Source: an uncultured Erythrobacteraceae bacterium (GTDB taxonomy: Bacteria; Pseudomonadota; Alphaproteobacteria; Sphingomonadales; Sphingomonadaceae). Taken from it: a stretch of DNA of 37,774 bases. Below are positions 13,239 to 34,143 of the stretch, in pieces; within the stretch, counting starts at the first letter, position 1, and the number at the start of each line of letters is the position of its first letter. The notes below the pieces were generated by a model. The model was not told the origin of the DNA. It was given only the letters and a program-made list of their open reading frames with translations, and did not search any database. The position numbers were made by a program, and so were the translations under genes. The stretch covers positions 1 to 37,774 of the forward strand of contig CATMNW010000002.1 of assembly GCA_950071875.1 (NCBI GenBank). The letters run 5' to 3'.

Positions 13239-13296
13239 GGCGCTGCTGCGCGGCGGTGCCAGCCAGTCGGCCGTGCACAGGCGCGGCGACGTTAGC

Positions 13297-13315: not shown

Positions 13316-13374
13316 TGTTAGGATAGTTAAGGAGCTCGCAAGGCCAGCATTTCTGCGGGTTTGCGCTGCATTTC

Positions 13375-13440: not shown

Positions 13441-13441
13441 A

Positions 13442-14323
13442 TCACACCGACTTGTCCACAGGAGGCATGCCGATGCGCCGCCGGGCGACATCGAAGGGAT
13501 CGACAGGAATTGCCACGAAGCTGAGCCGCTCGCGGCCCAGCTGGTGGTCGAGCGAGAGGGTATAGCCCGGGAGCGGTTGGCGCCGGACGATTGCGCGCAT
13601 CTCGAAAGCGAACCGTTTGAGCGGTGAAAGCGCACCAGATTTGAGGTGAAGATGGGCAATGTCGAAGCTCCATCCGCCCTTTTGTTTGCCGCCATGTTTG
13701 CGCACGATCCGGTATAGCCAGCGCTCCAGGCCCCCGGTCAGCGTGAAATAGGCCGGGTCGATCGTGAGTACGAGCGCTCGGTCGATGACCGCTTCATAGA
13801 GCCAGTCCGGCACGATCATCTCGATGCCGAGCGCGCGGCCATTGCCATCGAGGCATTCGCGCCATTCGTTGATCCAGGAAAAGCGGTGGCGACGGCGTCC
13901 GCCCAGCTGGCGGATCGATGTCGCGATGCTGGTCGATTGCAGCCTGTCGAGCGCGGCTTTCAGTCGCTCATAGGCGGCCTTGCCGGTACCGCGGCGGGTA
14001 AAGGCGAGGATTTCATGCGGGGTGGCGGCAATGAGCCGCGACGTCGGCTTTCCGGCATCGCGCGCCTCGACGATCTGGCTGGCCACCCAGATCAGCACAT
14101 CGGCGTCCCATATGGTTGCCATGCCATGTTCGGCAGTTGCCTCGACAAGAATTGAGATGTCGCCCATGCGAAAGTCGATGGGCTTCACCCGCTTCGATTT
14201 GGCGAGGCTGAAAAAGGGCCATGCCATCAGGTCCTGCGCATCGCGCGCCGCGATTGCTGCGGAGGTTCCGACGAACAGATCGAGCTGCTGTGCTGCGCTG
14301 GCAAAGGTCGTGCGGGCCGTCAT
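13442..14323 (-). CDS. repA: Replication initiator protein A (RPA family)
   Basis: QDLMAWPFFSLAKSKRVKPIDFRMGDISILVEATAEHGMATIWDADVLIWVASQI; position next to iterons and RdfS-like gene. Confidence 0.9.
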   Translation of the reverse strand: MTARTTFASAAQQLDLFVGTSAAIAARDAQDLMAWPFFSLAKSKRVKPIDFRMGDISILVEATAEHGMATIWDADVLIWVASQIVEARDAGKPTSRLIAATPHEILAFTRRGTGKAAYERLKAALDRLQSTSIATSIRQLGGRRRHRFSWINEWRECLDGNGRALGIEMIVPDWLYEAVIDRALVLTIDPAYFTLTGGLERWLYRIVRKHGGKQKGGWSFDIAHLHLKSGALSPLKRFAFEMRAIVRRQPLPGYTLSLDHQLGRERLSFVAIPVDPFDVARRRIGMPPVDKSV

Positions 14324-17504: not shown

Positions 17505-18161
17505 CTACAGCCAAGATATGCCGAGATGGTTCTGGCCATGCGCCAGTTCGCCTCCGAGGAACCCCTGGGCGAGAATGAGCACAGCCATCGAAGCAAGCGC
17601 AATGCGCAGCATCGTCCGGCTTTCCGGGCGGCGGTGCGCGAGCGCGGCGAGTACAACACCCAGAACGGCAATGAGCATGCCGTTCCAGCGATGGAGCTGC
17701 ATTGCCGTATCCCCGCCAAACCACAGTCCGGTGTGTATCCACCCGAATATGGCCGCAATGACGGCGCCGCCCGCACCGCCGTAAATGAGCACGCGTACCG
17801 CAGGCTCCAAGCCGGCCCCTCTTCGCTTACCGACGAAGAGCTCGGCCAGCGCGGCCATCAGAAACAGGGCAATCGGGAAATGTACCGTGGCGGGATGCAA
17901 TCTCTTGAGCACACCAACGAAGCCCTCCTCGTTCACATTGGCGGTCTCTCCCGATGCTTCGTCGTGCCCGCCGGAAGCATGAGCGTCACCCGAAGCGCCA
18001 TTCGATAGCTCCTGGGCTTCACCGGAATTGTTCACTGGACTGGCTGTCGCAGGCGCAGCTGCGCTCTCGGCCCCGCCATGCGCTTCGTCGCCATGCGCGT
18101 GGACCGGGCTGACCCAAAGAAGACTTGCGCAAACAAGCGCCAACAGTTGGATTGGCTTCAT
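17505..18161 (-). CDS. DUF2231 family membrane protein with His-rich N-terminal region
   Basis: Signal peptide, HGDEAHGG...HASGGHDEASGE, LHPATVHFPIALFLMAALAELF, multiple TM segments. Confidence 0.8.
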   Translation of the reverse strand: MKPIQLLALVCASLLWVSPVHAHGDEAHGGAESAAAPATASPVNNSGEAQELSNGASGDAHASGGHDEASGETANVNEEGFVGVLKRLHPATVHFPIALFLMAALAELFVGKRRGAGLEPAVRVLIYGGAGGAVIAAIFGWIHTGLWFGGDTAMQLHRWNGMLIAVLGVVLAALAHRRPESRTMLRIALASMAVLILAQGFLGGELAHGQNHLGISWL

Positions 18162-18209: not shown

Positions 18210-18238
18210 TACGCATCTGGAGATCTCACCCCTCAAAA
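18210..18238 (-). promoter_or_regulatory. ECF-type promoter element upstream of the DUF2231 gene
   Basis: TTTTGAGGGGTGA-GATCTCCAGATG-CGTA (minus strand); same layout as five other sites. Confidence 0.7.
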
Positions 18239-18374
18239 CAGTTTTCTGAGGGTGGGCCAGCGCAGGAGTTATGCGATTTTGTGTGCTCGGGCGATTGCAC
18301 GTCTGTCCGAATTGCGACCCATTGCAGCGAGCGAAGCCCGGGGGAGCGTCAGCACCGATCCGGGCCGCCGGTTC

Positions 18375-18764
18375 CTAGTCTTGCTGCGCCATATCCTGCT
18401 GGGCAGCCATCTGCTCCATCATATCGTGCATCATCGTCATGCGCTGGTGACAGGCCGCCATCATATCGGCGTTGCCCCCCTGCATCATGCCCGCCATGTG
18501 CTCCTGCATCTTTTCGCGGTGCTCGGCCGTCAGCCTTTGGCGTTCGGCGGGATCGCTCGCGGCGCGGGCCTGCTGCATCAGCGCGCGCATTTCAGCCATC
18601 TTCTCACGATGGGCTGTCATGGCCTCGGAATCCTGCATCATGTGGCCACTGTGATCCTGCTGCTGTGCTACAGCTTGATTTGCATGGTCATGCTGCTGCT
18701 GTGCCATTACCGGGGAGGCTGTCAGGCCAGTGGCGAGCAAGAGGGCCAAGGCTGTGCGGTTCAT
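18375..18764 (-). CDS. Small exported Met/His/Gln-rich protein, probable metal binding
   Basis: Signal peptide MNRTALALLLATGLTASPVMAQ; QQHDHANQAVAQQQDHSGHMMQ, HMAGMMQGGNADMMAACHQRMTMMHDMM. Confidence 0.75.
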   Translation of the reverse strand: MNRTALALLLATGLTASPVMAQQQHDHANQAVAQQQDHSGHMMQDSEAMTAHREKMAEMRALMQQARAASDPAERQRLTAEHREKMQEHMAGMMQGGNADMMAACHQRMTMMHDMMEQMAAQQDMAQQD

Positions 18765-18818
18765 GGTCGAATTCCCTTCTTTGGTCAGGTGGTGGATGCC
18801 TTGTGCATTCATCACCTT

Positions 18819-18847
18819 TACGCAGCGAACGTCGCTCCCCCTCAAAC
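18819..18847 (-). promoter_or_regulatory. ECF-type promoter element upstream of the Met/His-rich protein gene
   Basis: GTTTGAGGGGGAG-CGACGTTCGCTG-CGTA (minus strand). Confidence 0.7.
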
Positions 18848-18993
18848 AATCACGCAAGAGATGGTGGCGGCGAAGGGCAGGCCAACAGCCGAGCCGGTTG
18901 CAGCATTACTGATTTTCAGCCACGTTTCCGGCACAAGCCAAGAGAAAAGAAGGAGACGGTCATGGTATCAGAAAAGCCGCCGGGAATGCTGCG

Positions 18994-19281
18994 ATGAGCG
19001 CGGTCAACGAAGACGGCAGCTGGGAAGTCCCGGAACCGGACAAGGCCGAACTGGTGCAGATGCGCATTCGTCTCATAACGCTCGAAAACATCGTTCTTGG
19101 CCTGCTGTCCGGAGCGAGCAGTGAGCAGATCGAACAGATCAGAAAGCGCGCGGACATGATTGAACCGCGTCCCGAGGCGAGCAGGCACCCTCTTACCGAA
19201 CTGGCAGCAAATGACATGCGCAAATTTCTTGACCGTGCTGCTCGGCTTACCGACAACGCGGATCATGGAGAGGCTGAGTAA
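18994..19281 (+). CDS. Hypothetical protein
   Basis: 95 aa ORF MSAVNEDGSWEVPEPDKAELVQMRIRLITLENIVLGLLSG; amphipathic helical pattern. Confidence 0.55.
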   Translation: MSAVNEDGSWEVPEPDKAELVQMRIRLITLENIVLGLLSGASSEQIEQIRKRADMIEPRPEASRHPLTELAANDMRKFLDRAARLTDNADHGEAE

Positions 19282-19365
19282 TCCGGCAATGCAAACGCGA
19301 TCGAGGACCGAAAATGCAGGCCAGGAGCGGCTTTGCGATGCACATATCTGTGGAATCATGGCAAG

Positions 19366-19806
19366 GTGACCAGAACCCATTGGCTAGTCTATATTTGCGG
19401 CAGCTTGATCGCGTTCGTCTGGGAAATCTACCAGATGCCGTTTTTCGTTCCGGGCAATCTCGAACCCTATGAACAGACCATTCGTTGCGGCATTGCGAGC
19501 CTGGGCGATGGACTTATCCTGCTCGCAGCGTACACGCTCGCAGCCATGAAGGGCGGGCGCGCCTGGTTTCGCCAAGGCGCCAGGATATCTTATGCAATAT
19601 ACTTCGGTTTCGGCCTTGTCGTTGCAATCGCTGTCGAAATCATGGCGACGTCGCTACCGTCAGACAGCCTGCTGAGCTGGCGCTATAGCGATCTGATGCC
19701 CCATGAACCATTGACCGGCATGGCTCTGATCCCGATCGCGATGTGGACGATCGTGCCTGCGCTGACGATCCTTCTGGTTCGGTTTGCTCAAACCGAGCGC
19801 AACTGA
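19366..19806 (+). CDS. Hypothetical multi-TM membrane protein
   Basis: VTRTHWLVYICGSLIAFVWEIYQMPFF... with about four hydrophobic segments. Confidence 0.6.
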   Translation: MTRTHWLVYICGSLIAFVWEIYQMPFFVPGNLEPYEQTIRCGIASLGDGLILLAAYTLAAMKGGRAWFRQGARISYAIYFGFGLVVAIAVEIMATSLPSDSLLSWRYSDLMPHEPLTGMALIPIAMWTIVPALTILLVRFAQTERN

Positions 19807-19819
19807 ACTGAAAGCAGTC

Positions 19820-20572
19820 TCAACGAGCGACTTGGCCATGTCTCGCCCGGCGCTTAGTCCTCGGGAACCTGTTGGCCAGCAAGACGAAGCCCGAGATCGC
19901 GATAATTGTCCCGCCGATGCCGAACAGCAAAAGCCACCAGCTGTTGATCCGGTCGCGCTGCGTCCAGTCCATGATGTGCAGCCCCCAGATGAAATCGAAG
20001 AACCGCCACGTGTCGCTTCGCGCGGAGAGGACCGCACCGCTCGATGCATCGACATAGACGCGCGTGTTAGCCACGTCATTATAGGTGATTTGCCATGCAG
20101 GAAACGGGCCCCTGAATTCGGTGCCAACGCTTTCGTCGACCAGGCGCGCCGCATGGATGGATGTTTGCGGACCGACCCAGGCGCGCCGCGCAATTGAACG
20201 TGCCGTGGCTGCGGGAATGGGAGATAATATCCGACCGCTTTGTGGCTCATGCAGGCTCACGGCGCCATCGGTTCGCCGCACCTCAGTGACAGTCTTGCCA
20301 TCAAGAACCCGGGTCGTGATTGCGGTAATGTCATCGCTGTCGGACAGCCATCGCGGGATGGCGGCATCGTCGGGAAGCGTCTGTGCTGCGCGCGAGATGA
20401 CATGCTCGGATCGCACTTCCTCCAGATCGAGAAAGGACATCAAAGCTCCGGTGCCCATCCACAAAAGCACCTGGAGGCCGACGAAGATCGCCAGCCATTT
20501 GTGCAGCTTGCTGCCCAGGACATGCAGGCGCAGCTTGAACGAGCGTTTCGCCACTCGGTTGCCCCCTCGCAC
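19820..20572 (-). CDS. PepSY-associated TM domain protein
   Basis: LHKWLAIFVGLQVLLWMGTGALMSF...NDVANTRVYVDASSGAVLSARSDTWRFFDFIWGLHIMDW. Confidence 0.85.
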   Translation of the reverse strand: MRGGNRVAKRSFKLRLHVLGSKLHKWLAIFVGLQVLLWMGTGALMSFLDLEEVRSEHVISRAAQTLPDDAAIPRWLSDSDDITAITTRVLDGKTVTEVRRTDGAVSLHEPQSGRILSPIPAATARSIARRAWVGPQTSIHAARLVDESVGTEFRGPFPAWQITYNDVANTRVYVDASSGAVLSARSDTWRFFDFIWGLHIMDWTQRDRINSWWLLLFGIGGTIIAISGFVLLANRFPRTKRRARHGQVAR

Positions 20573-20577
20573 TCCGA

Positions 20578-21141
20578 TCAGCGGTTGCGCGGCGCGCGCG
20601 ACGAGGAATGATATTGCACGATCTTCCAGCCATCGGCGTCATGGGCAAGTACGGATGTGGCCACGCCCTCGCGCTCGATAACCCGACCATCCGTCAGTTC
20701 GATCCGGTAGGTGTAGGTTTCGCGCCCGTAAGCGAGATGTCCCATGCGGGTGACCGCGACGGTCGGATCACCGAAGGTGAAACTTGCAATTGCATCCAGT
20801 TCGGGCCCGAGATGATGCTCCATGTAATGCGTGAAGCTACCTTCGTCCTTGCCGTTCTCGTAAACGAAAGATTCGTCGGCAAAAAGAGCGTCCATTGCGT
20901 CACCGTCGCGGGCAACCAAGGCCTCACGGTAGGCGACCAGAGCCGCTTCTGCACCGGCGACATCGTCGTTCATGGCCGCCATGTGATCGGCATGGTTCAT
21001 GCCTTGCGCCGAATGGTCCATCTCCATCGCTTCAGCTTGTTCCTGATGCGCCGAATGATCCATGGTCTGCGCCATCGCCGGTACTGCGGAAACTGCGAGG
21101 GCCGAAGCCATCAAACCTTGAATGATCATCGAATTCTTCAT
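20578..21141 (-). CDS. Exported DUF4440/SnoaL-like protein with Met/His-rich N-terminal segment
   Basis: Signal peptide, MDHSAHQEQAEAMEMDHSAQGMNHADHM, then SnoaL pattern ALVARDGDAMDALFADESFVYENG. Confidence 0.8.
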   Translation of the reverse strand: MKNSMIIQGLMASALAVSAVPAMAQTMDHSAHQEQAEAMEMDHSAQGMNHADHMAAMNDDVAGAEAALVAYREALVARDGDAMDALFADESFVYENGKDEGSFTHYMEHHLGPELDAIASFTFGDPTVAVTRMGHLAYGRETYTYRIELTDGRVIEREGVATSVLAHDADGWKIVQYHSSSRAPRNR

Positions 21142-21156
21142 TAGTCTTTCCTTTTT

Positions 21157-22434
21157 TTAGAACCAGAACCGGACACCGACGACATAGTTCGTCACGCTCG
21201 GGTCTTCGCCGGCCGCACGGGCATAGGCGGCACTATCGCCTATCCGCCATTCCTGAGAGACGCCGATATACGGCGCGAATTCGCGTGCGAATTCATAGCG
21301 CAGGCGAAGGCCTGCTTCGATTCGGTCGATCCCCGCGCCAACTCCCAGCTCCGGAATATCCTGAGCCGAAAGTGCAAGTTCCGCGCGCGGCTGAAGGATC
21401 AACCGCTGGGTGATGCGCTGGTCAAGTTCGCCCTCGATGCGGGCCGTCACATCGCCCTTGCTGGAAATAAACGCCGCAGCATCGACTTCGAACTTGTAAG
21501 GGGCAATACCCTGGATGCCGATCACCGCATGGGTGCGTTCAGGTCCGGTCAAGTCTTGTCGGACACCAGCCTGGAAGTCGAAAAAGGGTGCGATGGCGCG
21601 GCTCCACAGAGCCTGCACCTCGGCCCCTTCGATCGGTTCGCCGAAGCTGCCCTCGCCTTCCGATTTGAACCAGAACTTATTGATATCGCCGCCGTAATAA
21701 CCCTGAACGTCCCAAAGATAGCCGTCCGCGCCTTCGCGCGCCCGGTATTCCACGCGGTCGCCCTGTATCCATAGCCGCATGCCGCCATCGGTTTCGCGGA
21801 CCAGCTCCTGCCGGGCTTCGTTCATGGCTTCCTCGCCCCAAATTGCAATACCGGCGCGCGCGGGGCCGCTGCCAGCTTCGGGCGGAGGCGGGAGGAGCGG
21901 GATCATATCGTCGGCAGACCCTTGCATTGCGGAATGATCCATTCCCTGCATGGCTGGTGACGGCGCGGAAACCTGGCCCATCTGACTGTGGTCCATCTGG
22001 CTGTGGTCCATCTGGCTGTGGTCCATCTCGCTCTGGCTCGCCTGGCCTTGAGGCATATCGCCATGATTCATCTGGCTGTGATCCATTTCCATGGATTCCT
22101 GACCGGACTGCGCCATGGGCATCTCCATGCCCGAACTTTCTTCACCTTCGGCCATCGCCCCTTGGCTCATCTGCGAATGATCCATGGTTCCGTGATCCAT
22201 CGCCGGTTGGTCGCTGGCGGTCGGCTCGCAAGCGCCGTCCGCAACGGCATGGCCCATGTCCCGATGGCGCTGCGCTTCCTGCGCACACCTGTCCGCAGCA
22301 TCCTGGCCCGTGACCGGCTGAGCCCCGGGCTGGGGTTGACTGGTGTCATGCCCGGCATGCTGTGCCGAAGCCGGTGCCGACAGCATCGTTCCGGCAGCGA
22401 GCGAGGCAAGCAGGCTTGCTAGAAAAGTCTTCAT
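21157..22434 (-). CDS. copB: Copper resistance protein B
   Basis: Met/His repeats plus C-terminal outer-membrane domain ERTHAVIGIQGIAPYKFEVDAAAFISSKGDVTARIEGELDQRITQRLILQPRAEL...VGVRFWF. Confidence 0.93.
   Translation of the reverse strand: MKTFLASLLASLAAGTMLSAPASAQHAGHDTSQPQPGAQPVTGQDAADRCAQEAQRHRDMGHAVADGACEPTASDQPAMDHGTMDHSQMSQGAMAEGEESSGMEMPMAQSGQESMEMDHSQMNHGDMPQGQASQSEMDHSQMDHSQMDHSQMGQVSAPSPAMQGMDHSAMQGSADDMIPLLPPPPEAGSGPARAGIAIWGEEAMNEARQELVRETDGGMRLWIQGDRVEYRAREGADGYLWDVQGYYGGDINKFWFKSEGEGSFGEPIEGAEVQALWSRAIAPFFDFQAGVRQDLTGPERTHAVIGIQGIAPYKFEVDAAAFISSKGDVTARIEGELDQRITQRLILQPRAELALSAQDIPELGVGAGIDRIEAGLRLRYEFAREFAPYIGVSQEWRIGDSAAYARAAGEDPSVTNYVVGVRFWF
21979..22023. repeat. Tandem 15-bp repeat within copB, three units
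   Basis: catct(g)(a/g)ctgtggtc at 21979-21993, 21994-22008, 22009-22023, encoding (DHSQM)n. Confidence 0.85.
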
Positions 22435-24248
22435 GCTTCGCTCCCGTCCGGATTGGCGACCGTGACGATCTGAAACATCCCGGCGTGCATGTGGTAAAGA
22501 AGATGACAGTGAAAGGCCCAGTCACCCGGCTCGTCGGCAGTCAGGTCGAATTGGGCGCTGCCGCCTGGCTGCAGGATTACCGTGTGCTTCAAGGGCTGGC
22601 GATCCGCAGGGGCACCATTGACCAGTTCGAAGAAATGACCGTGGAGATGGATCGGATGCGCCATCATCGTGTCGTTGATGAGCTTGACCCGTACCCGCTC
22701 GTCATAGGCAAAGCGGATCGGTTCGTCGGAGACGGCGGAAAACTTCTTGCCGTCGAACGACCACATGTAGCGCTCCATATTGCCGGTCAGATGGATTTCC
22801 ATCCGCCGGGACGGAGTTCTGCCTTCCTCGTGCGGCCTCAGCGCGCGAAGCTTGCGATAATCGAGCGTGCGATGGGGCACATCGGCAAGGCCAATGCCCG
22901 GATCGCCCATGCGATCGACCGGGTTCATCGATACCATGTCGAGGCCCGGGCCGACCTTCACGTCAGGCGGAAGGCGCGACGTATCGCGCATCTGCATGCC
23001 AGACATGCCTGCCATCCCCGCCATTGCGTCGCCGTTCGGCGCTCCGCTCGAACCATGATCCATGCCCGCCATGGCACCATCGGTTCCATGATCCATCCCT
23101 GACATGTCACCACCAGTGCCTGCACCGTGGTCCATACCGCTCATGCCCATGTCGGCCATGGTGAGCAGCGGCGGATCGCGCAGCGGAGGTATAGCTGCGC
23201 GCGCGCCGGGCCTGCTCGCCAGCGTCGCGATGCCCATGCCAGAGCGGTCCATCGACTCCGCCACCAGCGTGTAGGCCGGTTCCTCGCGCGGGGTGACGAC
23301 AACGTCGTAGGTTTCGGCGACACCGATCTGCAGCTCATCGACCTCGACCGGTTCGACATTCTGTCCATCAGCCTGAACCACTGTCATGGGTAGGCCGGGG
23401 ATGCGTATATTGAAGAAAGTCATCGCGCCGGCATTAACAAAGCGAAGGCGCACCCGCTCACCCGGCCGGAACAGATACTCCAGATTGTCCAGCGGGCCAT
23501 GGCCATTCAGAAGATAGGTATAGGCCGCGCTCGATACGTCGAGGATGTCAGTCGGCATCATGCGCATCTTCGCCCACATCCGCCGGTCCTCACCCGACAG
23601 CGGATAATCATCCGTCCAGGTGTTCTGGTTGTAGTTGAAGTAGCCTTCGCCCTTCTTGAGCTTGTCGAAGATCGCGTGCGGCGACATGTCGCTGAATTCG
23701 CTCAGCACCACGATATATTCGCGGTCGGCCTGCACCGGATCGGGACCTGCGGGATCGACCACGATCGCGCCATAGTGGCCCGCCTGTTCCTGAAGGCCGC
23801 TGTGCGAATGCCACCAGTAAGTTCCCGATTGCCGCACGGGAAATTCGGCGGTGAAGGTCTCACCCGGCTTGACGCCGGGGAAGCTCACTCCCGGAACGCC
23901 ATCGAGCTCAAATGGTACGAGAAGCCCGTGCCAGTGAATGGACGTATCTTCCTCAAGCTGGTTATGCACGTTTAGCCGGACCGTCGTTCCTTCCTGCAGG
24001 CGCAGGAGAGGTCCTGGAATACTGCCATTGACAGCGATCGCGCCGCCGCGCCTGTTGCCGCTTGCGAAGGCGGACCGGGCTACGGTGAGGTCGATATTCG
24101 GCCCCGCCACCTCGTCCAGTCCCTTACGGGCATTTCCCGCCAGGAGGTCACCGCCGCGCGCCCAGGCCGGCATTGCTCCGGCAAGGCCAAGCAGGCCCAT
24201 CCCGCCTGCTCCCGTACCAAGGAATTTGCGTCGATTTACGGAAATCAT
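22431..24248 (-). CDS. copA: Copper resistance multicopper oxidase CopA
   Basis: Tat-type MISVNRRKFLGTGAGG; HWHG, HSH, MDHG-rich insert, C-terminal HPIHLHGHFFE and HCHLLYHMHAGM copper motifs; start 24248 preferred over 24272 because of RBS and promoter position. Confidence 0.95.
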   Translation of the reverse strand: MISVNRRKFLGTGAGGMGLLGLAGAMPAWARGGDLLAGNARKGLDEVAGPNIDLTVARSAFASGNRRGGAIAVNGSIPGPLLRLQEGTTVRLNVHNQLEEDTSIHWHGLLVPFELDGVPGVSFPGVKPGETFTAEFPVRQSGTYWWHSHSGLQEQAGHYGAIVVDPAGPDPVQADREYIVVLSEFSDMSPHAIFDKLKKGEGYFNYNQNTWTDDYPLSGEDRRMWAKMRMMPTDILDVSSAAYTYLLNGHGPLDNLEYLFRPGERVRLRFVNAGAMTFFNIRIPGLPMTVVQADGQNVEPVEVDELQIGVAETYDVVVTPREEPAYTLVAESMDRSGMGIATLASRPGARAAIPPLRDPPLLTMADMGMSGMDHGAGTGGDMSGMDHGTDGAMAGMDHGSSGAPNGDAMAGMAGMSGMQMRDTSRLPPDVKVGPGLDMVSMNPVDRMGDPGIGLADVPHRTLDYRKLRALRPHEEGRTPSRRMEIHLTGNMERYMWSFDGKKFSAVSDEPIRFAYDERVRVKLINDTMMAHPIHLHGHFFELVNGAPADRQPLKHTVILQPGGSAQFDLTADEPGDWAFHCHLLYHMHAGMFQIVTVANPDGSEA

Positions 24249-24283
24249 TGAATGCGGCTCCTGATGTGACATACACCCACCCT

Positions 24284-24312
24284 TACGCGCCTGTCAGCTG
24301 TACCCCTCAAAG
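24284..24312 (-). promoter_or_regulatory. ECF-type promoter element upstream of copA, overlapping the 3' end of the ECF gene
   Basis: CTTTGAGGGGTAC-AGCTGACAGGCG-CGTA (minus strand). Confidence 0.7.
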
Positions 24313-24869
24313 TTTTTGACCCGTTCTCTCAGCCGGTTGCGCGCACGATATATGCGCGTCTCGATCGCCTTCTCGGTCGTGCCGAGCAACGCGGCGGCTT
24401 CGGCCTGGCTTCGGCCTTCGACACTTACGAGCACAAGCGCTTCGCGCAGGCGTATGGGCAACCGCCCGATCTCCGCCTCGACGAGCCTGAGTTGCTCACG
24501 GCTCGCTGCAAGGTTTTCGGGATCGGGCGTGTCGTCGGCCACCGCCTGTACCTCGTCGGAACTCGGAAAACCGAAGAAACCGACGACCTTCCTTCGGCGA
24601 AGTCGGTCGCGACACCGGTTCAGGACAATTGTTGTAAGATAAGGGCCGACGGGCTTGGAGGCATCGAGACGATGCCGGGTGAGCCAGACCGATGCGAGGC
24701 TATCCTGGACCACGTCCTGAGCGGAGGAGGAAGACCCCAGCATGCGCGTCGCCAGCGCAATCAGCCGCGCGATGTGGGCTTCGACAAGAGACGAAAACGC
24801 CTGCCTGCTGCCGGCCACGACCTGCGCGACAAGTATTTGTTCTGAATTGCCCCCCTTTTTTACCGGCAT
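24294..24869 (-). CDS. ECF RNA polymerase sigma factor, CnrH-like
   Basis: Sigma2 region ARLIALATRMLGSSSSAQDVVQDSLASVW and sigma4 LPIRLREALVLVSVEGRSQAEAAALLGTTEKAIETRIYRARNRLRE. Confidence 0.93.
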   Translation of the reverse strand: MPVKKGGNSEQILVAQVVAGSRQAFSSLVEAHIARLIALATRMLGSSSSAQDVVQDSLASVWLTRHRLDASKPVGPYLTTIVLNRCRDRLRRRKVVGFFGFPSSDEVQAVADDTPDPENLAASREQLRLVEAEIGRLPIRLREALVLVSVEGRSQAEAAALLGTTEKAIETRIYRARNRLRERVKNFEGYS

Positions 24870-24875
24870 GCGGGG

Positions 24876-25310
24876 TCAGCTGCGCGGGCTGTCGGTGAGA
24901 GCTTTGGACACTTGCTGGTCAAATCGTCTTTGCTGATCGGGGTCGAGAATTTCACGCATGTCGAAGACATGGCGGACCGTTGCTTTTTGGAGATCGCCCA
25001 TGCGTGCATGAACCTCGTCGATGGCCGCCCCCACCCTGGGTCCGTATTCGTGTTCGGCTTCCATCGCCTGCGCGAGTTGGGCGTTGGCAGCGCGCGCAGA
25101 GGCCTCGAGCCTGGCCCGTTCCACAGCGAAGCGCGCTTCGAGTGCCTCAAGGCGTTGCTTCTGCTCGTTGGTTAGCGTGAGTTCATCATGCACGAACGCA
25201 TGCAGGCCCGTATCAGCATCGTGATTGGCCCAGCGATCCGCGCCGAGCGCACCGAGACTACCGGCGAGCGCCGCGAGCAGCACCGCGAGGGCAATATGCA
25301 ATTTCTTCAA
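24876..25310 (-). CDS. Periplasmic heavy-metal sensor, CnrX-like
   Basis: N-terminal TM; HAFVH (HxxxH), NEQKQRLEALEARF, RHVFDM (HxxxM), LDPDQQRRFDQ. Confidence 0.85.
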   Translation of the reverse strand: MKKLHIALAVLLAALAGSLGALGADRWANHDADTGLHAFVHDELTLTNEQKQRLEALEARFAVERARLEASARAANAQLAQAMEAEHEYGPRVGAAIDEVHARMGDLQKATVRHVFDMREILDPDQQRRFDQQVSKALTDSPRS

Positions 25311-25313
25311 TGT

Positions 25314-25610
25314 CTAGCGCTCCACATGCAGCAGCTCGGAGGGCGAGAGCCGCTCTCCGACAATGATGCTATCTGCTATGCCAGGTTGGGAACCAGCAAA
25401 TTGTGCAGGCCACCCGCTGGTGCCTGCACCGGCTCCCAGGCCGACGACGAACAGGCCCGCGAACAAGGCCATCCTGCGGCGTCTTTCAACGATTTCGCCA
25501 AGCTGGCCTGCCCGTTGCCACACGCCGGTCATGAAATCGTCCGGAACTTTGAAGGAGTCCTGTGTGCCCAGCGTCCCAAGCATCGCATCGAGTGTCTGAT
25601 TGTTACGCAT
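25314..25610 (-). CDS. Probable membrane anti-sigma factor, CnrY-like
   Basis: 98 aa, single TM (MALFAGLFVVGLGAGAGTSGW), located directly upstream of the CnrX-like and ECF genes. Confidence 0.65.
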   Translation of the reverse strand: MRNNQTLDAMLGTLGTQDSFKVPDDFMTGVWQRAGQLGEIVERRRRMALFAGLFVVGLGAGAGTSGWPAQFAGSQPGIADSIIVGERLSPSELLHVER

Positions 25611-25640
25611 CCATTGCTCCTGTCGGTTGCCCGCTTCCTA

Positions 25641-25669
25641 TACGCGATAGAATACCCGAACCCTTAAGT
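25641..25669 (-). promoter_or_regulatory. ECF-type promoter (divergent variant) upstream of the anti-sigma/sensor/ECF operon
   Basis: ACTTAAGGGTTCG-GGTATTCTATCG-CGTA (minus strand). Confidence 0.6.
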
Positions 25670-25674
25670 TTCTT

Positions 25675-25703
25675 TTTTGAGGGCTGCGGCCCGGCTGTGC
25701 GTA
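25675..25703 (+). promoter_or_regulatory. ECF-type promoter upstream of the methyltransferase-DUF411-DUF5676 unit
   Basis: TTTTGAGGGCTGC-GGCCCGGCTGTG-CGTA. Confidence 0.7.
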
Positions 25704-25732
25704 TCAGAACGTGCAACGAACAATAGCGAAGG

Positions 25733-26440
25733 TTGTTTGAACAGATCGGAAATTATGTGGTGAAAAATGCACGCCTCACAAAAGTGGAACGGGAGTTCAC
25801 TCCTCTGCTTGGCCACAGCTGGCTCACACCGCTCTACGATCGTGCGATTGGCGTTTTCACGCGCGAGGCGAAATGGCGCCGGGAGATCGTCAAACAGGCT
25901 CGAGTAAAACCTGGCGACAAGGTCATGGATGTAGGTTGCGGCACGGGGACGTTGTTGCGAGCCTTCATGACCAGCTGCCCCCAAGCAGATTTATTAGGCG
26001 TAGAACCCGATCCGGCAGCGCTTGCGATCGCACGGCGCAAGCTTGGTCCTGCTGCGGGCCTCGTTCGATGGCACAACGGATTTCTCGACAGTCTCGACCT
26101 TTCGGGTGATCGGCGACCCGATACGATCGTCAGCTCGCTTGTTTTGCACCAGGTTCCCGTGTCGCAGAAGCGCGCGATCCTCGAGCAAATGGAGGCCTTG
26201 CTAGCTCCTGGCGGCATGGTGCTGATCGCTGATTACATGCGCCAGGACCATCCGCTCATGCGCGCAATGTTCCGCGCGACCGTTCAGCTTCTCGACGGTT
26301 TACCAGACACCCAGCCGAGCGCTGACGGAGCAGTCGAGAAATTGCTAGGCGAAATTTTCGCAAGCGCAGAGCTGCTCGCTCAGATCCATACCGCAACCGG
26401 AACCATTTCGCTCTGGCGCGGCTCCAAGAAAGGCATGTAA
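25733..26440 (+). CDS. Class I SAM-dependent methyltransferase
   Basis: VKPGDKVMDVGCGTGTLLRAF; TTG (25733) or a slightly downstream GTG start. Confidence 0.88.
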   Translation: MFEQIGNYVVKNARLTKVEREFTPLLGHSWLTPLYDRAIGVFTREAKWRREIVKQARVKPGDKVMDVGCGTGTLLRAFMTSCPQADLLGVEPDPAALAIARRKLGPAAGLVRWHNGFLDSLDLSGDRRPDTIVSSLVLHQVPVSQKRAILEQMEALLAPGGMVLIADYMRQDHPLMRAMFRATVQLLDGLPDTQPSADGAVEKLLGEIFASAELLAQIHTATGTISLWRGSKKGM

Positions 26441-26441
26441 C

Positions 26442-26909
26442 ATGATCAAAGACAATCCATCGAAGCCGCTGCGGCGTTCGCTGACGGCATCGGTTCTTCT
26501 CACGCTTGCGGCCTGCTCGAATGCCGCACAGGCCGCCACCTACACGATGTTCAGGGACCCGGGATGTGGTTGCTGCCTGAGCTGGGCAGGACATGTCGAG
26601 GGCGGCATGGAAGCAGAAGTGGCTTCGGTCGATACTGACGATATGAGTGCGCTCAAGGCAGCCAAGGGCGTACCGCAGGATATGTGGTCGTGCCACACAA
26701 TGGAAGTCGAGGGCTACATCATCGAAGGTCATGTGCCCGCCGAAGCGATCGCGCGGCTCCTGCGCGAAAGGCCCGAGGGCGTGACCGGCCTCGCCGTTCC
26801 CGGAATGCCGCTAGGCTCCCCCGGCATGGAAATGGGCGATCGAGTGCAGCCCTATGAGGTCATCGCTTTCGGTCCGGACGGCCAGAAAGTCTTCGCATCC
26901 TATCCGTAA
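26442..26909 (+). CDS. DUF411 domain metal-binding protein
   Basis: MFRDPGCGCCLSWAGHVE...MWSCHTMEVEGYIIEGHVPAEAIARLL. Confidence 0.92.
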   Translation: MIKDNPSKPLRRSLTASVLLTLAACSNAAQAATYTMFRDPGCGCCLSWAGHVEGGMEAEVASVDTDDMSALKAAKGVPQDMWSCHTMEVEGYIIEGHVPAEAIARLLRERPEGVTGLAVPGMPLGSPGMEMGDRVQPYEVIAFGPDGQKVFASYP

Positions 26910-26950
26910 ACGCCGACCAGCCCAGATGACGGTAATTCAACAGGAGAACC

Positions 26951-27214
26951 ATGATGTCAGAGCGTTCGCTCAAATCCTCGATCATCGCCTGGGGCTGGAC
27001 ACTCAGCCTGTTTCTGCTCGTCAGCTATTTGATCTGCATAGCTTTCGGCCTGCTCGCGCCCGAACGGTTCCATATGCATGAGGCCTGGGAACCGCTGCTT
27101 CCCGGATACGAATGGCTGACTCTGCCTGGATTTCTCGCAGGCGCAATCGGCAGCTTCTTATATGGGTGGTACATCGCGGTGATCGTGGTGCCGTTATACC
27201 GGTACTTCAGATAA
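26951..27214 (+). CDS. DUF5676 family membrane protein
   Basis: SIIAWGWTLSLFLLVSYLICIAFGLL...WLTLPGFLAGAIGSFLYGWYIAVIVVPLYRYF. Confidence 0.8.
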   Translation: MMSERSLKSSIIAWGWTLSLFLLVSYLICIAFGLLAPERFHMHEAWEPLLPGYEWLTLPGFLAGAIGSFLYGWYIAVIVVPLYRYFR

Positions 27215-27349
27215 CGCTTGAGGAAATCAGACTGGCTTGAAACGGCGCTCTATCGATCGGAACAAGCACTTGGTTCCACGCGGGTGTCGGATGCGACAAA
27301 AGAAGGCTGGCGACACCAATCAGAATGACGCCTCGACAGGAGACGAACA

Positions 27350-28162
27350 ATTTCGCGATATCGATCCAGCGACGATAGACGGGGTCTGCTCCTGCACACC
27401 GCCATAGGCGCAGTCATGGGTTTCGCGATCCTTCATCCGGTGACGACACTTGTCTACTGGTATGAATTCGGTGCCTCGAATATTGCCGCCCAAAGCAACG
27501 CGCTCGCTTTTCTGCTTGACCGTCTGTCTTCGGCATTCGCGTTTGAAATGCTAACGATGAGCGCTGTGTATGTGGCGTTGGGCGCTGCGATCGGGCTGGG
27601 GTTTGGTATTTATCACAGCCGCCTTTTGGATGAACGCTCGAAAGTTCGTTTCCTCGAACGCGAGCTTGAAGAAGAGCTACCTTTGCTCATTGCCCGGGGC
27701 GAAGGAGAGCATGTCGAGTTCAAGTCGTCTATGCGTTGGGACAGACGCGAAGAGCGCGTAAACCGGCGCCTGCAGCAGGTTGTCGTGAAGACAATAGCGG
27801 GTTTTCTCAACCATGAAGGTGGCACGCTCTTGATCGGCGTGGAAGATGACGGGACTGTTGCGGGCATTGAAGCGGATATGCGAACGCTCAAGCACGCGAA
27901 CCAGGATGGATTCGAACGACTTTTGATGGACACTGCAAGAGACGCCCTGGGCGGGGATGCTTGTGCCCTGGTCCATAGTCGTTTCCATGGGCTTGGCGGG
28001 CTGACCGTTTGCAGGGTGATCGTCGAGAAAAGCGTGCATCCGGTCTACTACACCGAAGGGGGTGTCGCTCATCTCATGCTGCGCACCGGAAACAGTACCC
28101 GGGAGCTGGATGTTCGCGAAGCTCAGGCGCACCTTCAACGAAGAGAAGCCGGGCCGATGTAA
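27350..28162 (+). CDS. Membrane protein with C-terminal AlbA_2/Schlafen-like ATP-binding domain; probable ATT start at 27350 (first canonical start 27416)
   Basis: TM segments then GEGEHVEFKSSMRW...IAGFLNHEGGTLLIGVEDDGTVAG; upstream in-frame RGLLLHTAIGAVMGFAILHPV and AGGAG 7 nt before ATT. Confidence 0.7.
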   Translation: MSRYRSSDDRRGLLLHTAIGAVMGFAILHPVTTLVYWYEFGASNIAAQSNALAFLLDRLSSAFAFEMLTMSAVYVALGAAIGLGFGIYHSRLLDERSKVRFLERELEEELPLLIARGEGEHVEFKSSMRWDRREERVNRRLQQVVVKTIAGFLNHEGGTLLIGVEDDGTVAGIEADMRTLKHANQDGFERLLMDTARDALGGDACALVHSRFHGLGGLTVCRVIVEKSVHPVYYTEGGVAHLMLRTGNSTRELDVREAQAHLQRREAGPM

Positions 28163-28207
28163 CTATAACCCGGTCGCACACAGGCGCCTGGAGTCTCGCA
28201 GAATCTT

Positions 28208-28236
28208 TTTTGAGGGGTGAAGCCCTGCCGAACGTA
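28208..28236 (+). promoter_or_regulatory. ECF-type promoter upstream of the APC-glutaredoxin-channel-DUF305 unit
   Basis: TTTTGAGGGGTGA-AGCCCTGCCGAA-CGTA. Confidence 0.7.
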
Positions 28237-28246
28237 CTGTTCGGCA
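28226..28246. promoter_or_regulatory. Perfect palindrome TGCCGAAC-gtact-GTTCGGCA overlapping the putative -10
   Basis: 8-bp perfect arms; candidate operator. Confidence 0.5.
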
Positions 28247-28287: not shown

Positions 28288-29640
28288 TTGCAAGACCATG
28301 GTCACGATCGAACGGGCAATACCGCAGGCTCCATAACGCTGCTGGGCGGCATCGCCATGGGCACCGGCGTTATGATCGGTGCAGGCATCTTCGCACTCAC
28401 CGGGCAGATCGCCGAACTTGCCGGCCCCCTCTTTCCGCTATCCTTTATCGCCGGGGCGCTGGTCACTTCATTGTCGGCCCACAGCTACATCAAGATGTCG
28501 AACAAATGGCCGTCTTCGGGCGGCATCGCGATGATTTTGCAAAAAGCATACGGGCCCGGCGTCATCGCCGCATCAGCCTCGCTGCTGATGGCGCTGTCTA
28601 TGGTCATCAACGAAAGTCTCGTGGCAAGGACCTTCGCAACATATGCGCTGCGTCCGTTCGATCTCGAGAGCAGCGGATGGCTCGTTTCTCTGGTAGCGCT
28701 CGCTCTCATTATCTTTGCCTATTTCGTCAATGCAGCGGGCAACAAGTCGGTTAGCGGGTTTTCACTTATCATGTCGGCGATCAAGATCGGCGGCATTGCG
28801 CTATTTGCAGTAGCTGCGATCTGGGTGAGCGGTTTTTCATCAGGAGCATTCTCGCAGCCTGTAGCGCTGACCAACGCAGAAGCCCTGGTCGCCTCGGTTG
28901 CCTTTTCGATTCTCGCTTTCAAGGGCTTTACCACGATCACCAATAGTGGCGGCGAAATCGTCGATCCGCACAAGAATGTAGGCCGCACGATCATGATCTC
29001 GATTGGCATCTGCATCGTGGTCTATCTGCTCGTCGCTGTTGCGGTGGGCTCAAGCCTCAGCATCTCCGAGATTATCGAAGCACGCGATTATTCACTGGCG
29101 GCGGCGGCGCGCCCGGCACTTGGCGATCTCGGTTTCTATTTCACCGTCGCGATCGCGATCGCTGCCACCACGTCGGGCGTCATCGCGAGTGTTTTTGCGG
29201 TGTCGCGGATGCTGACGATGCTGACCGATATGAAGATGATCCCGCATAGCCATTTCGGCATGAGCGGCGGGATCCGCAGCCACATGCTGGTCTATACGGT
29301 TGTCGTTGCCGGAACGCTGGCCGTATTGTTCGATCTTTCCCGTATCGCATCGCTGGGCGCCTTCTTCTATCTCGTCATGGACATGCTGGTTCACTGGGGC
29401 GTCCTGCGCCACCTGCGCGGAAAAGTCGGCGCACGCGCCTCGGTGCTTCTCGCTGCACTCGCAGCCGATGGCGTGGTCCTGGCAGCTTTCACTGTCGCGA
29501 AATTGCGCAGCGATCCTGCCGTCGTGGCCTACGCCGTGATCGGGATCGCCGCCGTTTTTCTTGGCCAATGGTTCTACCTCTCGCGCAATCCCGGCGCACC
29601 AGCATCGCCCGAGAACGATGGAACGGGAGAGGCGAGTTGA
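28288..29640 (+). CDS. APC family permease
   Basis: GGIAMGTGVMIGAGIFALTGQIAELAGPLFPLSFI; about 12 TM segments; TTG start. Confidence 0.9.
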   Translation: MQDHGHDRTGNTAGSITLLGGIAMGTGVMIGAGIFALTGQIAELAGPLFPLSFIAGALVTSLSAHSYIKMSNKWPSSGGIAMILQKAYGPGVIAASASLLMALSMVINESLVARTFATYALRPFDLESSGWLVSLVALALIIFAYFVNAAGNKSVSGFSLIMSAIKIGGIALFAVAAIWVSGFSSGAFSQPVALTNAEALVASVAFSILAFKGFTTITNSGGEIVDPHKNVGRTIMISIGICIVVYLLVAVAVGSSLSISEIIEARDYSLAAAARPALGDLGFYFTVAIAIAATTSGVIASVFAVSRMLTMLTDMKMIPHSHFGMSGGIRSHMLVYTVVVAGTLAVLFDLSRIASLGAFFYLVMDMLVHWGVLRHLRGKVGARASVLLAALAADGVVLAAFTVAKLRSDPAVVAYAVIGIAAVFLGQWFYLSRNPGAPASPENDGTGEAS

Positions 29641-29642
29641 CC

Positions 29643-29756
29643 ATGCACTTCCTTTCCAGGTGGGAAGCTCTCGAGGCGGGCTCCACTGCACAACCGTGCC
29701 CGGCTTGCGCATTGCCCAGTAGCGCCATCACGAAAAACAAACGGAGCGAATTATGA
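29643..29756 (+). CDS. Candidate small ORF (37 aa) with CPAC motif
   Basis: MHFLSRWEALEAGSTAQPCPACALPSSAITKNKRSEL*; starts 2 nt after the APC stop and overlaps the next ATG by ATGA. Confidence 0.4.
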   Translation: MHFLSRWEALEAGSTAQPCPACALPSSAITKNKRSEL

Positions 29757-30502
29757 CGACCCGAACAGCGACGGTTTACCGCATGGTGATGGAGGATCAC
29801 GTTTGCCCCTATGGTCTCAAGACGATCGATCTCCTCAAGCGACAGGGATTCGAGATCGACGACAATCACCTGACAAGCAGGGAAGAGACCGACGCGTTTA
29901 AAGACAAGCACGAGGTCGAGACCACGCCCCAAACCTTTATCGAAGACAGGCGCATCGGTGGCTATGACGATGTGCGCGAATTCTTCGGCAAGAGCCGCTC
30001 GCAGCCCAAGGAGGGCGAAACCAGTTATCAGCCGGTCATCGCGATTTTCGCGGTGGCGCTGCTGCTCGCGCTCGGGCTGAGCTGGGCGTTCTTCGACAAT
30101 CTCTTTACCGTGCGCGCGGCAGAATGGTTCGTGAGCCTGTCGATGACCTTGCTGGCTGTCCAGAAGCTGCAAGACGTGCGCAGCTTCTCGACCATGTTCC
30201 TCAACTACGATCTGCTGGCCAAACGCTGGGTCCCCTATGGCTTCGTCTATCCGTTCGGTGAAGCCGCCGCAGGTATTCTCATGACCGCTGGCGCACTGAC
30301 CTGGCTTTCTGCTCCGCTAGCACTGTTTATCGGGACTATCGGCGCTGTCAGCGTATTCAAGGCGGTCTATATCGATAAGCGCGAGCTCAAATGCGCCTGC
30401 GTCGGTGGCAGCAGCAACGTGCCGCTTGGCTTCGTCTCATTGACCGAGAACATGTTCATGATGGGCATGGGTCTGTGGATGGGCGCAAAGGTCTTCCTAT
30501 GA
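29753..30502 (+). CDS. Glutaredoxin domain fused to a MauE/DoxX-like membrane domain
   Basis: VYRMVMEDHVCPYGLKTIDLLKRQGFEIDDNHL...TTPQTFIEDRRIGGYDDV then TM region with KCACVGGSSNVPLGFVSLTENMFM. Confidence 0.88.
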   Translation: MTTRTATVYRMVMEDHVCPYGLKTIDLLKRQGFEIDDNHLTSREETDAFKDKHEVETTPQTFIEDRRIGGYDDVREFFGKSRSQPKEGETSYQPVIAIFAVALLLALGLSWAFFDNLFTVRAAEWFVSLSMTLLAVQKLQDVRSFSTMFLNYDLLAKRWVPYGFVYPFGEAAAGILMTAGALTWLSAPLALFIGTIGAVSVFKAVYIDKRELKCACVGGSSNVPLGFVSLTENMFMMGMGLWMGAKVFL

Positions 30503-30912
30503 TCATTGCGCTCATCCTTGCCGTCGCTCTGTTCCTCTTGGCTATCGCCTCACACCTCGCGATCCTTGGTGTCGGCCACCGCCTCCTTGGTCGCAGGCGA
30601 GACACGCTGGCCAAACTTGGCGTCTCGCTGCTCGTCCTCAGTTCGCATTTTCTGGTCGCAATCCTTTTCGCGGTCGGCTTCTGGCTGGGCGCGGAATGGG
30701 ATCTTGGAGGGTTCGACAAGGCCCCGACAATGGACTGGATGGACTACTTTTATTTCTCGCTCATCAACGTGACCACGCTTGGTCTGGGCGACATCTATCC
30801 GACCGACCACCTGAGGGTGCTCGCCGGCATCGAAGCCCTGACAGGCTTCGCACTCATCAGCTGCTCGGCGCAGCTATTCTGGACCATGATGCATGAAGGA
30901 GAAAAAGCATGA
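30499..30912 (+). CDS. Two-TM ion channel-like protein (Ion_trans_2 type)
   Basis: Pore-like YFYFSLINVTTLGLGDIYPTDHLRVLAGIEALTGFALI flanked by hydrophobic segments. Confidence 0.8.
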   Translation: MIIALILAVALFLLAIASHLAILGVGHRLLGRRRDTLAKLGVSLLVLSSHFLVAILFAVGFWLGAEWDLGGFDKAPTMDWMDYFYFSLINVTTLGLGDIYPTDHLRVLAGIEALTGFALISCSAQLFWTMMHEGEKA

Positions 30913-31436
30913 CTGAGAAGACGCGCCACTCGGACAAGGGAGGGGGAGGCAGCTACTGGCGGTTCATGGCCATGGTTTCGACCTCAACCGTGATCATGTT
31001 CTTCCTGATGTATGCCAACACCTTCACCGTTGACGATATCTTCTGGAGCGAAACCCGGTTCTGGATGATGTTCGTCATGGGCGGAATGATGATGATCGTG
31101 ATGCTCCTTTTTATGTGGGGCATGTACAAGGACCGGACTAAGAACTTCATCATTCTTGGCGTCGGTGCCGTCGTGTTCGCCCTCGCTCTGTGGTTGGTGC
31201 GCAGTCAGACCACCGTCGACGACACCGAATATATGGCAGCGATGATCCCGCATCACTCGATCGCGATCATGACCAGCGAACGCGCAAGCCTGAAGGATCC
31301 TAGAGTGCGCGAACTCGCACAGGCCATCATCGTCGCCCAGCGCCGCGAAATCGCCGAGATGAAATATCTGATCAACGATATCGAGCAGAACGGCCCGCGG
31401 ACCGAAGAACGCCTGCCAGAGGAGATGCAGCAATGA
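30909..31436 (+). CDS. DUF305 domain membrane protein
   Basis: EYMAAMIPHHSIAIMTSERASLKDPRVRELAQAIIVAQRREIAEMKYLI; Met-rich TM region. Confidence 0.9.
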   Translation: MTEKTRHSDKGGGGSYWRFMAMVSTSTVIMFFLMYANTFTVDDIFWSETRFWMMFVMGGMMMIVMLLFMWGMYKDRTKNFIILGVGAVVFALALWLVRSQTTVDDTEYMAAMIPHHSIAIMTSERASLKDPRVRELAQAIIVAQRREIAEMKYLINDIEQNGPRTEERLPEEMQQ

Positions 31437-31921
31437 AAAACTTCGCGCTTATAGCGGCCATCGCATTGCCGCTCGCCGCCTGCAATTCCAACACGGCCCC
31501 AGGCAATGACCGCGAGGCACAGCTAGATCCGCCCGCAATTGCGGCCCCCATTAAGAATGCAGCCAGTGCGCTGGCAAATGTCAGCCCCGGCCTAATGCTT
31601 CCCGAAACCATGAATGGCGCAGATATCGCTGCGCTGGGCGCGGAGAATTCCTGTCAGTTTCGTCTGACCGAAATTGCTTTCCCGTCCTTCGTCTACGACG
31701 ATAGCGGCCAGGGTGCGGTCAAGATCAACGGTACCCTTATTCCGGTCACTGCCGATGGCCCGGACAGCTATTCGAACGGCGAGCTTCGCATCAGGACGCG
31801 CATGCTGGATGATGAAGGCGATGCGGGCCTGCAGATGCAGGAGATGATCGTGGCTGCGCCGAGAGCCAAGGATGAATTCGGCTTCTGGGGCTATACCACC
31901 TGTCCCGGCGGCGGAACCTGA
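31433..31921 (+). CDS. Hypothetical lipoprotein
   Basis: Lipobox IALPLAACNSN; 4-bp overlap with the DUF305 gene. Confidence 0.7.
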   Translation: MKNFALIAAIALPLAACNSNTAPGNDREAQLDPPAIAAPIKNAASALANVSPGLMLPETMNGADIAALGAENSCQFRLTEIAFPSFVYDDSGQGAVKINGTLIPVTADGPDSYSNGELRIRTRMLDDEGDAGLQMQEMIVAAPRAKDEFGFWGYTTCPGGGT

Positions 31922-32790: not shown

Positions 32791-34143
32791 ATGTATTTCG
32801 AGACGATCAAGACCCCGGGTCTTTCGCAACTTTCCTACATTATCGGTGCCGGCGGGCAGGCTGCGGTCATAGATCCGCGCCGAGACTGCGAAGTCTATGT
32901 CGACAAGGCCCGCGCCGAAGGACTGGAGATCACCCATATCTTCGAGACCCATCGCAATGAGGACCTCATCAGCGGATCGCCGATCCTTTCCGAAATGACC
33001 GGCGCGAGGGTCTATCACGGGCCCAATCCAGCAGGCGAAGTCGTGTTTGCCGAGACTGCGCGCGAAGGCGATTGCTTTGAACTGGGACAACTGAGAATCG
33101 AAGTGCTCGAAACGCCCGGTCACACTGACGACCATCTCGCCTTTGTTATCCATGACAGCGAATATTCCGAAGGACCGGTTGGCGTCTTCACCGGCGATGC
33201 GCTGTTTGTCGGCGATGTCGGGCGAACCGATTTCTATCCCGAACGCAAGGAGGAAGTTGCCGGGCTGCTGTACGATTCCCTGCAAAAGATTTGCCGTCTC
33301 GGAGACCAGGCAATCATTTACCCGGCGCATGGCGCGGGTTCGGTCTGCGGATCGGGTATGGCGGACCGGGAATTCTCCACGGTCGGCTACGAGCGCCGCA
33401 ACAATCCGCGCCTGCGCATCTTTGATCGCGACGAGTTCATTCAGGCGAAAATTGCAGAGCACCATTACCAGCCGCCGTATTTCCGGTTGATGGAGCGGCT
33501 TAATCTGGAGGGCGCAGATGCTGCGCCGCGCATCATGCGCCCCCGCCGGATGGGGCTCCAGCAAATTACCAAGAGCGGCGCTGACCACCTGATCGACGTT
33601 CGTGAACCGCTTGGCTATGCCGGCGGCCACCTGCCGGGCGCGATGTGCCTTCCGGTGGGAATGATCCCGGCTTTCGCCGGGTGGTTCATCACCGAGGGCG
33701 AGACGATAGCGCTGGTCGCCTCCGAAGAAGACCAGCTTGCCGAGGCGATGGCGCATCTGGTGCGCATCGGTTTTGACAACATCATTGGTGGTTACGTGGG
33801 CGTCGTTCCTGCAGCTGCACAGGGCGCGGCGATGCGCAGCGTTCCCATGATCAACACCGATGAAGTCGCGCAAAGACTCGACCAGAACGGCGGCCAATGG
33901 ACCTTGCTCGATGTGCGTGATCTCGAGGAGCGCCAGCAAACCAGTATCGATGGCTCAGAACATATCTACGTCGGCGAGCTGAATACCCGCTGGAAAGAGC
34001 TAAAGCAGGATCATCACTACACGCTGATGTGCGCCAGCGGGATGCGCGCGAGCGTTGCTGCGGGCTGGCTGGCCAGCAAGGGTTTCGAGCACCTCGACAT
34101 CTATCTTGGTTCCATGGGGGCGTGGAAGAACGCGTCCGGCTGA
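32791..34143 (+). CDS. Persulfide dioxygenase-like MBL-fold protein fused to two rhodanese domains
   Basis: MYFETIKTPGLSQLSYIIGAGGQAAVIDPRRD...HTDDHLAF...FTGDALFVGDVGRTDF; C-terminal LMCASGMRASVAAGWLASKGF. Confidence 0.9.
   Translation: MYFETIKTPGLSQLSYIIGAGGQAAVIDPRRDCEVYVDKARAEGLEITHIFETHRNEDLISGSPILSEMTGARVYHGPNPAGEVVFAETAREGDCFELGQLRIEVLETPGHTDDHLAFVIHDSEYSEGPVGVFTGDALFVGDVGRTDFYPERKEEVAGLLYDSLQKICRLGDQAIIYPAHGAGSVCGSGMADREFSTVGYERRNNPRLRIFDRDEFIQAKIAEHHYQPPYFRLMERLNLEGADAAPRIMRPRRMGLQQITKSGADHLIDVREPLGYAGGHLPGAMCLPVGMIPAFAGWFITEGETIALVASEEDQLAEAMAHLVRIGFDNIIGGYVGVVPAAAQGAAMRSVPMINTDEVAQRLDQNGGQWTLLDVRDLEERQQTSIDGSEHIYVGELNTRWKELKQDHHYTLMCASGMRASVAAGWLASKGFEHLDIYLGSMGAWKNASG

Follow-up and report, generated by a model that had tools for sequence, protein, structure and literature searches.

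The best-described counterpart of the system considered here is CnrYXH of Cupriavidus metallidurans plasmid pMOL28, where nickel induction of cnr requires CnrH and primer extension located the cnrY and cnrC promoters 24 and 25 nt ahead of their genes (PMC9045368). In the pMOL28 sequence, these promoters read TCAAGGG-N17-CGTATAAG (cnrYp) and CCGAGGG-N17-CGTATAG (cnrCp). We analysed a 37,774-base stretch of DNA (the window) from a marine Qipengyuania bacterium (Sphingomonadales) that carries a copper island, a gene for a CnrH-like extracytoplasmic function (ECF) sigma factor and six sites with closely similar boxes separated by 16 nt. Because these boxes match the mapped cnrY and cnrC promoters, including the AAGGG of the autopromoter, the window motif is, as judged from its letters, the CnrH promoter at the same two key positions with the spacer reduced by one nucleotide. 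It is very likely that the six sites are CnrH-class promoters read by the CnrH-like sigma factor and act as one metal-triggered switch for the island, which is very probably turned on as a whole. That this sigma factor reads the sites had been proposed in a preliminary description of the window, and the strongest evidence for it is that the boxes are identical to those of the mapped promoters; conservation at orthologous positions, co-occurrence with the sigma factor and its sensor, and near-absence at unrelated ECF sigma factors add to this. Transcription start sites (TSSs) 5-9 nt after CGTA, which that description also anticipated, are seen in the homologous C. metallidurans system, with the start at 53286 (PMC11647585) and the cnrC start each lying 9 nt past the A of CGTA (PMC9045368, PMC11647585).

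All six sites were found exactly at the coordinates and on the strands originally given (Table 1), each range comprising a 13-mer, a 12-mer and CGTA, the opening four bases of what had been called the -10 element. Within the window, GAGGG-N16-CGTA has exactly five matches, and the remaining site (25669-25641) carries AAGGG; the other spacers between N0 and N300 gave a mean of 0.07 matches each with a maximum of 2. Dinucleotide shuffles (n = 300) contained a mean of 0.13 matches and at most 2 (Poisson P = 3e-7 for five). A weight matrix derived from 121 sites of other genomes, with the window's sites left out, recovered the six at 18-33 bits and returned no further site above 6 bits, and the top score in 20 Markov windows was 10.8, so that the sites stand clear of random sequence. 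The data support CGTA, often with A or T next, as the -10 core and TGAGGG, with T-rich bases ahead, as the strongly conserved -35 core. Open reading frame starts were revised for copA (most likely 24248, with AGGAG ahead), the Met/His-rich protein (18764) and DUF2231 (18161); with these trimmed starts, the end of CGTA lies 29-54 nt before the start codon at all six sites, each of which stands, properly oriented, upstream of the first gene of its unit. In the source assembly (2.66 Mb, 76% complete), a pattern search gave two extra TTGAGGG-N16-CGTA matches (C85 and C92), which are probably due to chance since they score low (7.7 and 11.4) and are both antisense within genes.

Table 1. Sites and genes of the copper island, in window coordinates
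Feature	Positions	Strand	Remarks
Putative autopromoter of the sigma operon (anti-sigma/sensor/sigma)	25641..25669	-	CTTAAGGG-N16-CGTA(TAGG); 18.0 bits; AAGGG variant
Putative divergent promoter, methyltransferase-DUF411-DUF5676 unit	25675..25703	+	TTTTGAGGG-N16-CGTA; 29.0 bits
Putative promoter of copA-copB-SnoaL/DUF4440-PepSY	24284..24312	-	CTTTGAGGG-N16-CGTA; 33.1 bits; overlaps sigma gene 3' end
Putative DUF2231 promoter	18210..18238	-	TTTTGAGGG-N16-CGTA; 31.7 bits
Putative promoter of the Met/His-rich protein gene	18819..18847	-	GTTTGAGGG-N16-CGTA; 25.4 bits
Putative promoter of APC permease-glutaredoxin/MauE-ion channel-DUF305-DUF6692 unit	28208..28236	+	TTTTGAGGG-N16-CGTA; 28.2 bits
CnrH-like ECF sigma factor, 191 amino acids	24294..24869	-	Pfam Sigma70_r2 and r4_2
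Periplasmic metal sensor, CnrX/NccX type	24876..25310	-	Pfam Metal_resist
Candidate membrane anti-sigma factor, 98 amino acids	25314..25610	-	one hydrophobic segment; CnrY position
copA, multicopper oxidase	22431..24248	-	TIGR01480, 777.8 bits; start trimmed to ATG behind AGGAG
copB	21157..22434	-	Pfam CopB, E 2.2e-85
SnoaL_3/DUF4440 and PepSY-TM genes, copA operon	19820..21141	-	
Met/His-rich periplasmic protein	18375..18764	-	start trimmed
DUF2231 membrane protein	17505..18161	-	Pfam; start trimmed
S-adenosylmethionine (SAM) methyltransferase, DUF411 and DUF5676 genes	25733..27214	+	Pfam; DUF5676 slightly below the curated cut-off
APC permease, glutaredoxin/MauE, ion channel, DUF305 (CopM-like) and DUF6692 genes	28288..31921	+	family searches

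Relatives were gathered via the sigma protein, giving 61 genomes of the genus, 80 named loci and a class-wide set. The 80 loci represent 19 named genera, including Qipengyuania, Erythrobacter, Croceicoccus, Novosphingobium, Sphingobium, Pacificimonas and Stakelama. Every locus had at least one site, and 297 of the 302 sites preceded an orthologue of a window gene. TGAGGG-N16-CGTA matched 259 times, N15 not once and N17 twice; other spacings averaged 1.8 matches, and those with more than a few were mostly one repeated sequence apiece. A site preceded copA in 75 of the 77 loci having the gene, the anti-sigma candidate gene (the autopromoter) in 71/79, the Met/His-rich gene in 18/18 and, among loci with an orthologue, the methyltransferase gene in 34/45 and DUF2231 in 42/71; for the APC unit the count was 45/68. 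In pairwise comparison of distinct orthologous sites, boxes agreed at 0.92-1.0 and spacers mostly at 0.30-0.46, the higher spacer value for the Met/His-rich gene (0.72) coming from only six distinct sites. The expectation that the sites would be conserved in related genomes was thus borne out, with N16 kept at orthologous positions, and the spacers have diverged there while boxes and spacing were held, as had been remarked for the six sites of the window. At the copA site, 10 of 17 relatives use the TGA of TGAGGG to end the sigma gene; in others, and likewise in the window, the box lies in a different frame, and two sigma genes stop before it. As the frame of the stop relative to the box varies among the 17, the box is held irrespective of reading frame. 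The site of the Met/His-rich gene is also retained where this gene is ~30-60 kb from the sigma gene (L099:8537- and L100:7459-), and in two genomes the layout persists at targets ~30-70 kb from the sigma gene.

Spacer use followed lineage. Most sphingomonads have N16, and one Sphingorhabdus locus has both N16 and N17. Two Caulobacter plasmids (L223 and L224) bear the same module with N17, before the anti-sigma candidate gene and a copper-binding protein gene and, in L223, also before a P-type ATPase gene, which is why we regard spacer length as lineage-dependent. We also tried to relate the base before TGAGGG (T or another) to residues of the sigma recognition helix, and this was abandoned as the groups were not cleanly separated. 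A second, diverged copy of the regulator-copA region was noted in Qipengyuania citrea H150 (L070), 68 kb from the first and with 62-63% sigma identity; its gene order is rearranged, and the motif sites and layout are retained.

Presence of the sites tracked the regulator genes. Within Qipengyuania, at least two exact sites were detected in 25/25 genomes with a sigma factor at least 60% identical and in 2/24 without it. Across 201 genomes of the order, the mean number of sites was 2.5 with the sensor and 0.65 without, the reversed-pattern control giving 0.4. The background was higher in some other families of the order, where sites likewise stand beside the sensor gene. Even in a family with 28-31% sigma identity and AT-richer DNA (f8), N16 sites flank the sigma and sensor genes, some sites being close to DUF411 and APC homologues. 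At the class level (29 loci), sites were present in 4/4 loci with sigma, sensor and copA, and 24 of the 25 loci with an ECF sigma factor lacking the sensor had no plausible site, the other having one low-scoring match with CGTA intact.

The regulator proteins themselves point to the same families. The best PDB match of the sigma factor is CnrH (4cxf, E 8.8e-27), and it is 38.8% identical to C. metallidurans CnrH over 91%; the sensor best matches NccX (4clv, E 1.8e-18) and CnrX. The anti-sigma candidate had no match in Pfam, NCBIfam or PDB, carries the conserved motifs FMxGVWxRAG and LSPxxLLHV and is homologous to unnamed proteins encoded at the corresponding position in other alphaproteobacteria (97.8%). 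The CnrYXH model (PMC7689651) suggests by analogy that metal would drive release of the sigma factor. Without metal, the small membrane protein would hold it; upon binding of metal, most likely copper, by the CnrX-type sensor, the freed sigma factor would guide RNA polymerase to its own operon, a positive feedback, as well as to the divergent methyltransferase/DUF411 unit, copAB, the Met/His-rich and DUF2231 genes and the APC/DUF305 unit. A single signal would therefore turn on the whole island, given that the sigma factor would act at all six promoters.

Copper is the presumed inducer on the basis of the target genes, and of the copper/redox regulon envisaged in the preliminary description, the copper part is well supported by gene content, the redox part weakly. 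In an alignment (A4) of 16 copper-locus sensors and three CnrX/NccX rows, the CnrX ligand positions H36, H40, E57, H113 and M117 (A4 numbering) are invariant in all. The copper-locus sensors have, in 16/16 cases, an extra H-x2-M pair (H101 and M104 of the window protein); the three Ni/Co sensors carry E and A at these positions. The CnrX ligand residues other than Met123 are those of the CnrX structure papers. Met123 itself is a CnrX ligand (PMC7689651). The H-x2-M pair may set copper selectivity, and we tentatively suggest that a Ni/Co-type CnrX has become a copper sensor, with this pair as its mark, the sigma factor and promoter grammar being unchanged from Beta- to Alphaproteobacteria. A rather unlikely alternative is that promoters and sigma factor work as described and the physiological inducer is not mainly copper, the sensor responding to nickel/cobalt or several divalent metals and the copper genes being part of a broad response. 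The invariant ligands favour such an arrangement, and Sphingobium sp. ba1 in 10 mM nickel raises copA, copB and copC, an effect for which the authors gave no explanation (PMC5557971) and which leaves room for a broader metal response. However, the targets are copper genes across the order, elsewhere also including copC, copD, genes for copper-binding proteins and the Caulobacter P-type ATPase gene, and the H-x2-M pair is absent from the Ni/Co sensors.

Several observations weigh against a CnrH-type copper switch in the window. The TSS upstream of cnrY is labelled RpoD-dependent in PMC11647585, although the CnrH-dependent cnrYp was placed by primer extension at the same distance as that TSS (PMC9045368). 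The sensor retains the ligand set of Ni/Co sensors. With hhalign probabilities of 0.2% and 5.5% against CnrY/NccY, the anti-sigma candidate showed no detectable similarity to CnrY; in position, size and its one hydrophobic segment it resembles that protein. Box conservation was computed on sites that a pattern search had picked out, a bias limited by coverage (75/77 copA genes). The open literature searched yielded no expression, TSS or binding data on this organism or its family.

CopRS or CueR often govern copper genes elsewhere, and since the role of the sites is read here from sequence, the boxes could in principle be operators of another regulator (e.g. CopR-type) or promoters of a different sigma factor that adjoin this sigma gene incidentally. 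We consider this very improbable in view of their single asymmetric orientation, constant distance to the start and -35/-10 geometry, their association with sigma and sensor genes and near-absence at other ECF sigma factors, and their identity with mapped CnrH promoters; sigma-70-like promoters in the island were not above shuffled expectation. Although close relatives share sequence by descent and short motifs recur randomly, chance or ancestry without function is refuted by the one fixed spacing as against all others, the diverged spacers, the persistence of the box as the frame of the overlapping sigma stop shifts, and retention at 28-31% sigma identity.

With the six sites taken as CnrH-class promoters, nearly all units of the island have one, two small plus-strand genes at 18994-19806 having no CnrH-type site. 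The Met/His-rich protein was assigned to no family in Pfam/NCBIfam searches. A 9-bp inverted repeat, TGCCGAACgTActGTTCGGCA, at 28226-28246 shares bases with the -10 box of the putative APC promoter and might serve as an additional operator or form an RNA hairpin; AACGTACTG is found again at many orthologous APC sites. Conjugation or mobilisation genes adjoin the island, encoding a type IV coupling protein (T4SS-DNA_transf; 4785-6956, minus strand), a DUF3363/relaxase-like protein (9185-10954, minus) and a DUF2840 protein (12759-13673, minus), and megablast against plasmids matched the island in parts only, e.g. copA and the APC gene. After the island, 32791-37379 encodes a rhodanese/metallo-beta-lactamase fusion, a second metallo-beta-lactamase and a TauE/SafE exporter, and the weight-matrix scan gave no CnrH-type sites there.

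If the six sites are indeed read by the CnrH-like sigma factor, sphingomonads and erythrobacters would have their copper resistance controlled by an ECF sigma factor with a readable promoter code, and not by CopRS or CueR alone. The code would name regulon members directly, among them poorly understood ones, tying DUF2231, DUF411, DUF5676, DUF305, DUF6692, the methyltransferase and the APC permease to copper, and, should the sensor respond to copper, the copper regulons of an order could be read from sequence. Sister sensors for nickel/cobalt and presumably copper would also offer a pair for studying periplasmic metal choice, and copper genes governed by a CnrX-type sensor could explain the response of Sphingobium sp. 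ba1 to nickel.

No CnrH-type copper regulon in sphingomonads was found in the open papers searched, and other metal-responsive ECF systems resemble the window system in part. SigmaF of Caulobacter crescentus is likewise an alphaproteobacterial ECF sigma factor with a heavy-metal response and a small regulon, but its promoter is GTAACC-N16-CGAA and it responds to chromium and cadmium (PMC3511200). CorE of Myxococcus xanthus is a copper-responsive ECF sigma factor driving a multicopper oxidase gene, but binds the copper signal via its own Cys-rich C-terminal extension and has no anti-sigma factor (PMC10141476). A CorE-type assignment was rejected for the window's sigma factor, which ends ...RERVKNFEGYS with no Cys-rich extension and whose gene is preceded by those for the sensor and membrane protein. 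According to the available part of PMC12153292, SigAb of Acinetobacter baumannii is copper-induced, has its own anti-sigma genes, a small direct regulon and autoregulation, and regulates copper genes indirectly. The indirect control of copper genes sets it apart from the window system, as do its boxes, GTCAAC / CGTT, and that part mentions no CnrX-type sensor. The NccYXH-type module of Ralstonia plasmids is the same module and has a GAGGG-N17-CGTA promoter before its efflux operon, differing in the N17 spacer and in its output, heavy-metal efflux of the resistance-nodulation-division (RND) type. With CnrYXH, the window system shares the order small membrane protein, periplasmic sensor and ECF sigma factor, the latter two homologous; a promoter ahead of the operon and another where the sigma gene ends, the latter leading into the first effector; and the boxes [GA]AGGG and CGTA. 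It differs in having a 16-nt rather than 17-nt spacer, six promoters instead of two, copAB and copper-associated genes as targets rather than CnrCBAT nickel/cobalt efflux, and an H-x2-M pair added to the sensor. Because the anti-sigma candidate shows no detectable relationship to CnrY and the output is not nickel/cobalt efflux, we do not class the system as a plain CnrYXH member; it is a CnrYXH-like switch whose sigma factor and sensor belong to the CnrH and CnrX families.

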